From positions 1-30,371 of the IMG/VR virus record IMGVR_UViG_3300026518_000042: 30,371 nt of DNA. One strand, 5' to 3'. The stretch is from a virus. The position numbers were made by a program, and so were the translations under genes. The notes beneath the pieces were generated by a model. That model had not been told where the DNA came from. It searched no databases and saw only the letters and a list, made by a program, of their open reading frames with translations. Positions 3,301 to 29,021 of this stretch are shown here, piece by piece. Positions within the stretch are counted from its first letter, which is position 1, and every line of letters begins with the position of its first letter.

Positions 3301-3882
3301 AGTAATGCTGTCAGCATTGGCTTGATAATTATTAGCCATAGCTTGATTTACTATAGTAATTCTTGAATTTATATCGTCGGTAAACTGTGCTTGTAAATCT
3401 TGGGCACTTAAAGCTATTGATTGGTTAACAGAAGCTTCTACTAAATCTAAGTTAGTTATAGTAGCAAATTTGGTGTCATAGGTGGCATTGAGAGTTTCTA
3501 TATGTGTACCAACTATACCGTTAACTCTAGTCGAAAAATTTATCTCTTCTACATAAGAATTTTTAGCTACATCTATTGAATCTATTGCGTTTCTTACATC
3601 TTGAACTAACGCATTATAGTCGGTAAGTCCATTGGCAATAGAATTATTAACTACATTATTTATTAGTGCTGTCAGCCATGTTGGAGCAGTATCAGAATTA
3701 ATTCCTGCGTAAAACGCATCGCCTACAATAGAATATTCTTTTTTTATTGCTACAACTTCATTAGGCGGCAGAATATCTACACAATGTTTATTAGAATCAG
3801 CAGCTAAAGTTGTAGATTTTTTGGGTAAAACCTCTACAGAATCTACGGATATTTCAGTAGTTGTCTTTGAGTTAATCGACAT
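379..3882 (-). CDS. Lambda J-like central tail fibre / receptor-binding protein
   Basis: About 1167 aa. The N-terminal ~250 residues are predicted helical, with alternating Ala/Asn/Gln/Ile typical of a trimeric fibre stalk. Near the middle (nt about 1850-2060) a segment with EAGFGLDV and then SKFRVNAENFVL looks like the DUF1983-type region of lambda J proteins. The C-terminus VLRVKIGNL also matches the J-family ending. A short chitin-binding-like module follows (nt about 1651-1791: RGEYN, YIQGD, SSYLAL, YW). Then come two tandem ~142-aa repeats (nt about 1225-1644 and 796-1224), each with EYYK, NRYLWNYN, TQYVE, PYMWN and ending in collagen-like AAKG.NGANG. The role inferred is host recognition at the tail tip. 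The start is ambiguous: an ATG at 3882 (MSINSK) is chosen; an ATG at 3891 is the alternative, and both overlap the upstream gene. Confidence 0.75.
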   Translation of the reverse strand: MSINSKTTTEISVDSVEVLPKKSTTLAADSNKHCVDILPPNEVVAIKKEYSIVGDAFYAGINSDTAPTWLTALINNVVNNSIANGLTDYNALVQDVRNAIDSIDVAKNSYVEEINFSTRVNGIVGTHIETLNATYDTKFATITNLDLVEASVNQSIALSAQDLQAQFTDDINSRITIVNQAMANNYQANADSITSLTTMFTDQETNMSGIANAVTGLQTYVGLDYSSSNPNGLGMLARIGTLEKQSDGLVDFTSNIYDVMDGVTNPNTNINDDRLITDALPYALWTNMYGVGVPTATVRTFKDYEKTPVIVSNAAILEGTIYIRTDDVNVTDVNIDKYYKFTGGSWTAITEAQYLNDKELLRNAHVGDVYIMYDNTNGTRNYIKSYKFIKIAPDATSPYATDTEGYTWALVTDTDSQSIYMTALQARDMADGKISNFYAWGDDDDVVDKSPKDRTITTKQAEYKVDSYGNYLDINNNITTDPAAYVLITPAETYNLSAVNVVFWFTGGKLYKKGTSWADKVLVPTTSGGSEFIAEGDLLTVFDPVTGDTSVYWYNNGSWVSNGPSGIISKSKWFVDLDDAVTGPHGHVAKAMSDLKVTNKAYADNVSNKVESKFSYDSTVILNGVQYEAGFGLDVTGSSQIGVDGAGDPIFSSKFRVNAENFVLTNPNYPGVEAKFNVTSTGLKLSLDQTEATRNIPRGEYNASTTYIQGDIVTLSGSSYLALSNVPTGTPPTNTTYWSLLSAKGSDGVSYTGTTEYYKLTNSSTAPLISSGGWSTSPQTPTATNRYLWNYNKNSKSNGTYTNSSVSLVTQYVENGVGIASISDWYQLGTSSTSYPTGTWSSTFSGAGAISDATPYMWNRTLINYTDGTNSGYSYTLIAAKGTNGANGVSYTGTSEYYKVTNSATAPTNGGSSGTGWSTSPVIPTASNRYLWNYNVSNKSDGSYDIGAVSLITQYVEDGAGIASITEQYQRGSSATTAPTGIWYSTIANAGPLTVTYPYMWNKTTINYTQGKPSTVTITIIAAKGDNGANGVRGTAVLSYSADLGSTTTSGATSSIASYWSSLASSEYKPEREGDTLIVTNTNVAAGWTHIYEYKAGSWTAANTFTVNGNQVVNGTLSADAIGSGSFLTTKLSTAAVPAGYSGTIIDSNGMRVYESGVLRVKIGNLV

Positions 3883-26962: not shown

Positions 26963-27724
26963 TCAACTACTGTATTTATGCTTTATTAGACAAGCTATCT
27001 TTTTACCTAATGCGGTATTAGGGTGCAAATTAGCCCCTCCTACCCTAGCTAAATTATACAAATCCCAATATTCAGACTCAGCAGCGGAGTTTCCAAAATA
27101 TTCCTCTAAATCTACGGAATAATCAGCAGTATCTTCTAACTCTGGTACTACTTCTATAACAGTATTCTCTAATTTTTGATTGTTTTTAAGCGTTTTCCAT
27201 ATACCATTAATAGTTCCATAATCTTCTATCTTATCAAATTCCCTATTATATAATCTTACCTTGTTTTGGTGTAATAGTGCCTTCAGGTATCCACTATTTT
27301 CTTTCTCTATAAAACTAAGTTTACTAACATAATTAGAGTTCAATCTACTGAATACACTAGGCATATCTGATTTCTTTACACCTTTAGCTTTACATAATAA
27401 ATAAGCTTCAGTTTTAGCTGCATCAGTATTTGTAGATTTATTAAGTGCATTACTTATAACTAATGATAAGGCATCTTCATCAGAAATATCTCCTACATCT
27501 ACGCATTTCATGCCTATTTCTAAATCTACGCATATAGCTCTTCTATGCCTACCATCAAGTATCTTACCGTTTCTCATAACTACTGGCACTAGCTGACCAT
27601 TCCTATAAATATCATCGCTAAGCTCCTTTAACCCCTCTTTAGTGTATGACAAAGTAAGCTCAGCTAATGGGTCTATAGCTAATTTACTAGCTGTACCTGT
27701 ATCTAGTTCATAAATATTACGCAA
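26963..27724 (-). CDS. ParB/sulfiredoxin-like nuclease-domain protein
   Basis: 253 aa. The N-terminal ParB-like domain carries GQLVPVVM (43-50) and ILDGRHRRAICVD (55-67), matching the nucleotide-binding box II of the ParB/Srx superfamily. The second half (AKTEAYLLCKAKGVKKSDM, LNSNYVSKLSFIEKENSGYL) looks like the helical DNA-binding region of ParB/KorB-like proteins, in degenerate form. A TGA directly precedes the TTG at 27724 and the next Met is at residue 50 inside the domain, so a TTG start is needed for an intact domain; GGCGGA precedes it. It overlaps the ribbon-helix-helix gene by 8 nt. Possible roles: transcription regulation, DNA segregation or DNA processing. Confidence 0.7.
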   Translation of the reverse strand: MRNIYELDTGTASKLAIDPLAELTLSYTKEGLKELSDDIYRNGQLVPVVMRNGKILDGRHRRAICVDLEIGMKCVDVGDISDEDALSLVISNALNKSTNTDAAKTEAYLLCKAKGVKKSDMPSVFSRLNSNYVSKLSFIEKENSGYLKALLHQNKVRLYNREFDKIEDYGTINGIWKTLKNNQKLENTVIEVVPELEDTADYSVDLEEYFGNSAAESEYWDLYNLARVGGANLHPNTALGKKIACLIKHKYSS

Positions 27725-28052
27725 TCATCAATCCGCCATCATAGTCGTTAACATTATAGGAAAGCAATCTAAGGGTGTAACAAACCTTACTACCATTTAT
27801 TAGGTATGTATTATCATCAAATATAACTTTACCATTCTGTATACTCTTAATAACCAACGGTACGTTAGCAGGTCCTAAAACTACTGCCCCTATAGGAAGG
27901 TAACCATCTTCAGTATACGCATGTGTGAGCTTCAGCTCTTTATCTACTAGGTCACTAATAATCGTATCATAAGTACCGGCAGATAAACTATCTTTAAGAA
28001 TTCTCAATCTATCTGCGGTACTTTCTTTTACCCTTATTGTTTTATCTGTCAC
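27717..28052 (-). CDS. Ribbon-helix-helix DNA-binding protein
   Basis: 111 aa from a GTG start. The N-terminal segment TIRVKESTADRLRILKDSLS, followed by TYDTIISDLVDKEL, fits the beta strand-helix-helix layout of RHH (MetJ/Arc/CopG-like) proteins. The C-terminal ~65 residues form a separate beta-rich domain (GAVVLGPANVPLVIKSIQNG, KVIFDDNTYLI) of unknown role. GTGA overlap with the upstream gene and 8-nt overlap with the ParB-like gene. It probably represses this operon or acts on the adjacent repeat-rich control region (inference). Confidence 0.65.
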   Translation of the reverse strand: MTDKTIRVKESTADRLRILKDSLSAGTYDTIISDLVDKELKLTHAYTEDGYLPIGAVVLGPANVPLVIKSIQNGKVIFDDNTYLINGSKVCYTLRLLSYNVNDYDGGLMIA

Positions 28053-28228
28053 GTCATAGTCTCCATACCATAACGAGCTACATGCGCATCTCTTAATTCC
28101 TTATAATTCTCATAATCCTTTTTATGAACCTTAGCGGATATAGGCTTATCTGTATCTACGGCTATTTGCCATTGCTTATACGCATCATTCATCTTACTTT
28201 CATAATAACTAATCATAGTATTCACCAT
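28049..28228 (-). CDS. Small leader gene of RHH/ParB operon
   Basis: 59 aa, start ATG at 28228 with AGGAG 6 nt upstream (a TTG one codon earlier is less likely). Helical and rich in Tyr/Lys/Asp (YESKMNDAYKQWQIAV, KKDYENYKELRDAHVARYG); no known domain. First gene of the leftward operon, about 35 nt after the predicted start point of the promoter at 28270-28297. Confidence 0.6.
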   Translation of the reverse strand: MVNTMISYYESKMNDAYKQWQIAVDTDKPISAKVHKKDYENYKELRDAHVARYGMETMT

Positions 28229-28269
28229 CAATTACTCCTAAAATCTACAGGTAAATAAATCACTATATT

Positions 28270-28297
28270 ACTATACCTGCCCACTTATAACTGTAAA
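28270..28297 (-). promoter_or_regulatory. Leftward promoter of RHH/ParB operon
   Basis: On the minus strand TTTACA, 16-bp spacer, TATAGT (5/6 and 5/6). The spacer contains a GTTATAA box immediately next to the -35, so a box-binding protein would occlude polymerase. Predicted start near 28263; the gene start is 28228. Confidence 0.5.
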
Positions 28298-28308
28298 ATA
28301 AATGTTAA
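28292..28308 (+). repeat. 17-bp direct repeat, copy 1
   Basis: TGTAAAATAAATGTTAA, identical to 28615-28631. This copy contains the -35 of the leftward promoter (TGTAAA on this strand). Confidence 0.85.
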
Positions 28309-28362
28309 TATACCCGTAAAAGTTATAAATTTTAGGATATTTCAGTTATAAATCTCATCCTT

Positions 28363-28411
28363 GTATGCAGATAATAGACTATTTGCATACAATAATACAA
28401 TATTTGCATAC
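28363..28411. repeat. Three TGCATAC boxes with exact 21-bp spacing
   Basis: GTATGCA at 28363-28369, TGCATAC at 28384-28390 and 28405-28411. The centres at 28366, 28387 and 28408 are exactly 21 bp apart (two helical turns). The two right-hand copies share a longer ATTTGCATAC; the left copy is inverted. Confidence 0.7.
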
Positions 28412-28427
28412 AGAATAAGGTATTTTT

Positions 28428-28442
28428 TTATAACTGTTATAA
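28428..28442. repeat. Perfect inverted repeat of GTTATAA boxes
   Basis: TTATAAC, one base, GTTATAA: two boxes head to head around a single central T, a natural dimer-binding palindrome. A second palindromic form, GTTATAAC, lies at 28502-28509. Confidence 0.7.
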
Positions 28443-28614
28443 TTTTTAAGGCAATTATAATTTCCTATAAGCACTGGATTCCGCTAAGGTAAAAAGTGCA
28501 AGTTATAACCTTAATATTATATATACATAGGGAAGTTATAAATTTGTACAAAAAATGAACAATTTTGATATTAAAAGACTACCCCTAAATCTAGTGGGTA
28601 TACCCCATATATTA

Positions 28615-28631
28615 TGTAAAATAAATGTTAA
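28615..28631 (+). repeat. 17-bp direct repeat, copy 2
   Basis: Exact copy of 28292-28308. No -10 element lies at the right distance here, so it is not a second copy of the same promoter. The shared sequence may be a binding site. Confidence 0.85.
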
Positions 28632-28719
28632 ATTGCAATAATGTTATAAGAAAATTTGTATTGGAAATTGTAATTATTTATTAGAGGGGCTGTACTCCTA
28701 CTATTCGTTATCTTAGATT

Positions 28720-28757
28720 GAAGTACCCCCCCTATACTTCGTATATGACGGTACTTC
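28720..28757. other. Nested hairpin upstream of first rightward gene
   Basis: Outer arms GAAGTAC (28720-28726) and GTACTTC (28751-28757); inner 5-bp stem TATAC/GTATA with a 3-nt loop (28733-28745). Placed 46 bp before the 28803 ATG. Could be a promoter hairpin, operator or attenuator. Confidence 0.6.
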
Positions 28758-28802: not shown

Positions 28803-29021
28803 ATGAACAAATTAACCAAAGACGACTATGTAAGTATATGTGAGGCTCTTAGAGCCAAAGGATACTCTGTTGAAACAAAGCGTGAACAGTCAAAACTGTT
28901 CAAAGACTTAGAAAAGTCTAACTTTCAAGTAAGACTGAAAGGGAAGACGTACCAAGTGTACGCATCAAGAATCATAGCTATGATGCACGAGACCTCGGAG
29001 GATTCACCTCTTGAGTTATAA
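28803..29021 (+). CDS. Small early protein, unknown
   Basis: 72 aa, basic and helical at the N-terminus (MNKLTKDDYVSICEALRAKG) with a short strand pair (FQVRLKGKTYQVYASRIIAM). No recognised domain. The leader AACATAAAGGTAAAAATT precedes the ATG and is nearly identical to that of the next gene. A rho-independent terminator follows within 10 nt. First gene of the rightward block; likely an early host-takeover or regulatory protein, from position only. Confidence 0.65.
   Translation: MNKLTKDDYVSICEALRAKGYSVETKREQSKLFKDLEKSNFQVRLKGKTYQVYASRIIAMMHETSEDSPLEL

Follow-up and report, generated by a model that had tools for sequence, protein, structure and literature searches.

A dense array of 7-bp boxes in the divergent control region of a marine N4-like phage probably serves the adjacent ParB-like protein as an operator array; this protein would act as a KorB-type autoregulator. 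The array, its conservation in relatives, its architecture, and a one-to-one change of the box with the protein's recognition helix can be read directly from the sequences. On this evidence, physical binding of the boxes by the ParB-like protein is very likely; a role in repression and in an early/late switch is inferred more weakly and is only somewhat favored. What is new here is a ParB-like regulator whose specificity switches naturally among phages of an apparently virulent lineage.

The DNA analyzed here, referred to as the window, is a 30,371-nt fragment of a virus record from an N4-like phage. Its TerL is 61% identical to that of Alteromonas phage AD45-P1, whose record labels N4 gp68-, gp69-, gp59-, and gp50-like proteins. 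Leftward of the array lie the genes for p60, an RHH-like protein, the ParB-like protein, a GIY-YIG protein, TerS, TerL, and structural proteins. The small rightward genes are presumably early genes, judging from their position and the N4 plan. In two relatives, ORFs that appear by eye to be YopX-like are inserted into the leftward operon (L001 3688–4065, L021 544–973). The features of the operon in the window are the following.

28270–28297, minus strand: TTTACA-16-TATAGT, by consensus match only a sigma70-like leftward promoter for the p60/RHH/ParB-like operon, with box 1 inside
28049–28231, minus strand: ORF of a 60-aa protein (p60), the leading gene of the leftward operon
27717–28052, minus strand: RHH-like protein of 111 aa, encoded in one operon with the ParB-like protein; some relatives with an array have no counterpart
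26963–27724, minus strand: ParB-like protein, 253 aa (phrog_26392, 1.6e-102; AF2 and Foldseek), the putative box binder
27311–27349, minus strand: codons for residues 126–138 (SRLNSNYVSKLSF), start of the recognition helix, in which S130 and S134 covary with the box

A first-pass annotation of this DNA had claimed eight GTTATAA/TTATAAC sites in about 365 bp, in both orientations, including a head-to-head pair at 28428–28442 and a self-palindrome at 28502–28509. Recounting returned the same eight places, and both special arrangements are as described. The eight places, between 28285 and 28649, give nine oriented matches, one place being palindromic.

28285–28291, minus strand: box 1, GTTATAA, exact match, inside the leftward promoter-like site, in its spacer
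28322–28328, plus strand: box 2, GTTATAA, exact match
28345–28351, plus strand: box 3, GTTATAA, exact match
28428–28442, both strands: boxes 4 and 5, head-to-head TTATAAC-T-GTTATAA, a 15-bp palindrome with a 1-nt center; matches start at 28428 (minus) and 28436 (plus)
28502–28509, both strands: box 6, palindrome GTTATAAC, with matches at 28502 (plus) and 28503 (minus)
28535–28541, plus strand: box 7, second arm of an inverted pair spaced by 32 bp
28643–28649, plus strand: box 8, exact match

The TTATAAC reading of GTTATAAC (28503–28509) forms the other arm of this inverted pair, with a start-to-start distance of 32. The first-pass annotation had proposed a comparison with shuffled sequence, and the array proves to be well above chance. 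Dinucleotide shuffles of the same stretch yield 0.39 copies of GTTATAA in 365 bp or 0.56 in the 571-bp intergenic region, and nine matches were reached in 0 of 5000 shuffles; with free choice of the word, about 1% of shuffles contain some 7-mer nine times. Across the full 30-kb window, GTTATAA matches 20 times versus 14 expected, and no other local 7-mer cluster there is as dense as the array. Box 1 lies between the −35 and −10 hexamers of the leftward promoter-like site, in agreement with the earlier annotation. Promoter-like sites in the region number four versus 5.3 expected in shuffles, and so are not enriched. Judged by eye, a box also falls in or on the corresponding promoter-like site of AD45, L019, and L023, which reads TTGCAT-18-TGTTATACT in AD45 and L023.

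Several other repeats accompany the array. The first rightward gene (28803–29021) has an extra GTTATAA at its 3′ end (29015–29021), and a perfect 17-nt direct repeat, TGTAAAATAAATGTTAA, occurs near both array ends (28292–28308 and 28615–28631). TGCATAC/GTATGCA occurs three times between 28362 and 28412, two copies lying inside a 21-nt direct repeat. The idea that the TGCATAC repeats form an RHH site was rejected, since they are also present in L024, which has no RHH gene; they thus fit a −35 element (TTGCAT) better. TTGCATAC, found again in AD45, L023, and L024, is perhaps also a −35 element.

Conservation was examined in ten relatives from IMG/VR and phage records that carry a ParB-like gene and whose control region could be read. 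The array is present in the matching early/late divergent region of all 11 phages (the window and the ten relatives, including AD45-P1), so the boxes flagged by the first-pass annotation are conserved, though with altered spelling. The box is GTTATAA in the window and L001; GTTATAC in AD45-P1, L019, L020, L021, L023, and L098; GTTACCC in L003; GTTAGG(T) in L024; and GTTAG(CA) in L004, where it is weakly defined, with two exact copies alongside GTTAGAA and GTTAGGT. The spelling varies, but the spacing is kept. In a targeted search, an inverted pair with a start-to-start distance of 30–32 bp was found in 11 of 11 phages and a head-to-head pair with a 1-nt center, exact or degenerate, in 10 of 11, those of L021 and L098 being partly degenerate. 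In a sequence-agnostic search, perfect 7+7 inverted repeats with a start-to-start distance of 31 occur in seven of the 11 regions (shuffle mean 0.65, maximum 3), and those with a distance of 8 occur in six (shuffle mean 0.8, maximum 4). When the targeted architecture search was run against 60 shuffles, nine regions beat all of them and L021 was matched by 3 of 60; L020 fails for lack of the 1-nt pair. The complete AD45-P1 genome has one array, with seven of its 21 GTTATAC copies within 185 bp. No comparable array was recognized in L006 and L008, which lack the ParB-like gene. L011, also without this gene, has an AGGTAC-rich array (1790–2100) adjoining an ORF that is RepL-like by eye, possibly the array of another regulator in the same position.

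The boxes covary with the ParB-like protein. Its residues 130 and 134 change one-to-one with the five box classes, three of which have a single member each: S/S with GTTATAA (window, L001), I/R with GTTATAC (AD45, L019, L020, L021, L023, L098), G/K with GTTACCC (L003), K/E with GTTAGGT (L024), and R/D with GTTAGCA (L004). They are the sole columns of the protein to do so. A control scan of TerS, TerL, and GIY-YIG columns found none that is one-to-one with box class; one GIY column, with seven residues, determines the box yet is not one-to-one. The residue pairs also appear chemically sensible: R134 goes together with a complementary-strand G (GTTATAC), and K/R130 with E/D134 goes together with GTTAG. 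Outside the helix, L001 is 64% identical to L021, a GTTATAC phage, versus 60% to the window, with which it shares box and helix. A ParB tree built without the helix columns is weakly resolved and requires five box changes. A single clade of the window and L001 is not rejected (p-AU 0.28), so shared ancestry could account for part of their box/helix match. Because box spelling and two helix residues change together, the DNA-recognition code of the ParB-like protein becomes readable from sequence alone. The DNA specificity of ParB and Noc can be switched by a few residues in or near the recognition helix (PMC7383237).

The ParB-like protein has an N-terminal ParB domain followed by an HTH, the arrangement of the ParB/Spo0J/Noc/KorB family. 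A Pfam search returned zero matches, and PHROG ParB-like matches and PDB profile matches to the N-domain are weak; Noc, ParB, KorB, and PadC are among the PDB and Foldseek matches and are the best solved structures by Foldseek (5e-5 to 7e-4). The AF2 model has a mean pLDDT of 74, rising to 80–90 around the HTH, and places the HTH at residues 118–142 and the recognition helix at 130–142. The CTP-motif positions are partial in the alignment, with DGRHR at GERR (GERRxRA) and SNALNK at ENxQR. A direct equivalence of residue 130 with Caulobacter ParB R173 was rejected, as R173 corresponds to residue 129, and N178 to residue 134, in the HMM alignment. This offset limits the claim for residues 130 and 134 to the first turns of the recognition helix. 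No relatives of the protein were found in GTDB genome contigs. A second ParB subfamily, also found beside box arrays, extends the pattern but was left out of the covariation count. Its L005 member is 27% identical to the window's protein and adjoins five AGTGCA boxes (L005 6928–7229); L096, a relative of L005, has TTATAGCC/GGCTATAA boxes (2493–2857), one of them on a TTGACA-16-TATAAT promoter-like site.

These data suggest a mechanism in which the HTH of the ParB-like protein would read a 7-bp half-site, with invariant helix residues recognizing the GTTA core and residues 130 and 134 the three outer bases. Dimers would be expected on the palindrome with the 1-nt center and on the inverted pair, whose arms lie about three helical turns apart. 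The palindrome and the 30–32-bp pair would be the main binding sites, with further boxes on or beside the leftward promoter. Bound protein would then repress its own leftward operon, a negative autoregulation, and its occupancy could separate this operon from the divergent early region.

On the early side, the leader contains a conserved hairpin upstream of the first rightward gene, identified by leader alignment.

28720–28757, plus strand: conserved hairpin GAAGTACC...TATAC-TTC-GTATA...GGTACTTC

The 11 aligned leaders (window, L003, L004, L005, L016, L019, L020, L023, L024, L096, and L098) have two features in common: an element near GGCATTACTCC and, about equally far from the first rightward gene, a stretch resembling a hairpin that contains CCCCCC and in most cases ACTTCGT. 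The template strand of many leaders reads C-G-A/G-A-G, and most have a C-GNA-G mini-loop; in the window, the template loop is C-GAA-G, and the predicted +1, near 28750, is a template C. Promoters of the N4 virion RNAP need −11A/G, −10G, a loop-closing G:C pair, and +1C (PMC4496689), and the template-strand C-G-A/G-A-G supplies the required loop and closing pair. The G that N4 requires at −8 is an A in the window hairpin. The element is a candidate N4-type virion-RNAP early promoter. Ahead of it lies a conserved AGAGGGGC-TACTCC element (28684–28699, plus strand), and L004 seemingly carries several copies of the form TTTTTTACGAGGGCAATACT (3600–3830).

The ParB fold, the AT-rich sequence, the single array per complete genome, and the position between divergent gene blocks would also suit a parS-like centromere or replication origin site, rather than mainly a transcriptional operator. 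As the main function this is improbable; a mixed role is conceivable. No PF13614 (ParA-type ATPase) match was found in complete AD45-P1 and six other records, the scope of a search that was positive for 14 of 14 controls. Complete AD45-P1 also yielded no integrase, which leaves no sign of a plasmid-like or prophage state, and the two absences make partition unlikely. Moreover, the boxes are located at promoter-like sites that belong to the ParB-like protein's own operon. The first-pass annotation had offered an autoregulated switch or an origin/partition-like site; the autoregulated control region is well supported, but the partition half loses ground with the lack of PF13614 in AD45-P1. Its remark that such a region is not described for phages of this type holds within the literature searched, in which nothing was found on this regulator.

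The first-pass annotation also suggested that the RHH and ParB-like genes could form a switch with the boxes. The RHH protein could itself bind the boxes as operators. Arc, CopG, and omega-type repressors bind repeated short half-sites, the omega heptad arrays are a known precedent, and in most relatives the RHH gene immediately follows the array. However, L020, L024, and L098 keep the array in an operon without an RHH homologue, so the RHH protein is not the general box reader. No relation to box class is evident in its beta-strand residues, and the window and L001 share a box at 33% RHH identity, whereas AD45, at 41%, has another. A search of IMG/VR with the RHH protein alone yielded no relatives, and the RHH alignment was too divergent as a query. 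The RHH protein is a very unlikely reader, and of the proposed pair the ParB-like protein is the likely one.

That the boxes are merely repeated −10-like (TATAAT-like) elements of an AT-rich control region is hardly credible: GTTATAA and GTTATAC contain TATAA and TATAC, and predicted −10 hexamers (TATACT for GTTATAC) fall on some of the boxes, so promoter function may explain part of the conservation, but L003 and L024 build the matching architecture from GTTACCC and GTTAGG, neither of which resembles a −10 element, and the box covaries one-to-one with the recognition helix.

If the ParB-like protein is the reader, the group offers a natural matched regulator–operator series, with five box classes and two covarying residues, as a test set for specificity change in ParB-family HTHs. 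It further suggests that a regulator distinct from the N4 SSB route acts at the early/late boundary in this group of marine N4-like phages. Immunity and incompatibility groups are known for temperate phages and plasmids. Repeated box/helix switching might reflect selection against cross-recognition between co-infecting relatives, with a ParB-type specificity factor defining such groups, although we consider this doubtful; if true, avoided cross-regulation would extend the immunity-group idea to apparently virulent phages.

Among known systems, the RHH protein omega of pSM19035 binds contiguous 7-bp heptads in both orientations. The phage array likewise has 7-bp boxes in both orientations, but they are irregularly spaced, and the array is kept without an RHH gene. 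The stoperators of Cluster A mycobacteriophages are spread genome-wide and act in lysogenic immunity. As in that system (PMC6550527), a phage repressor would face many operator copies that diverge between relatives. In contrast, the phages here have one local array and no detected integrase, and the AD45-P1 box outside its array is at the shuffle level (14 versus 15.3). Chromosomal ParB and Noc, which act on parS and NBS, share the HTH family and a specificity that a few helix-region residues can switch; their sites are 14–16-bp palindromes for segregation or nucleoid occlusion (PMC7383237). ParABS systems cluster ParB sites near parB; the array here, which adjoins the operon and whose box covaries with the ParB-like helix, may be such a cluster. 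The phage group differs in having five natural classes with two covarying residues and no ParA. Another close likeness is to KorB–OB of plasmid RK2, a ParB-family repressor system whose operator is TTTTAGC-G-GCTAAAA, with a 1-nt center (PMC11790492). Both have a ParB-family fold (Foldseek 8qa9/8qa8), a short 1-nt-center palindrome, and operators near promoters; at the sequence level, the phage palindrome lies near the promoter that would be regulated. No KorA was found in the phage, and its CTP motifs appear degenerate in the alignment (GRHR for GERR; ENxQR not kept). Unlike KorB–OB, the phage array gathers many half-sites and a 30–32-bp inverted pair in one control region, and its box spelling switches between close relatives.
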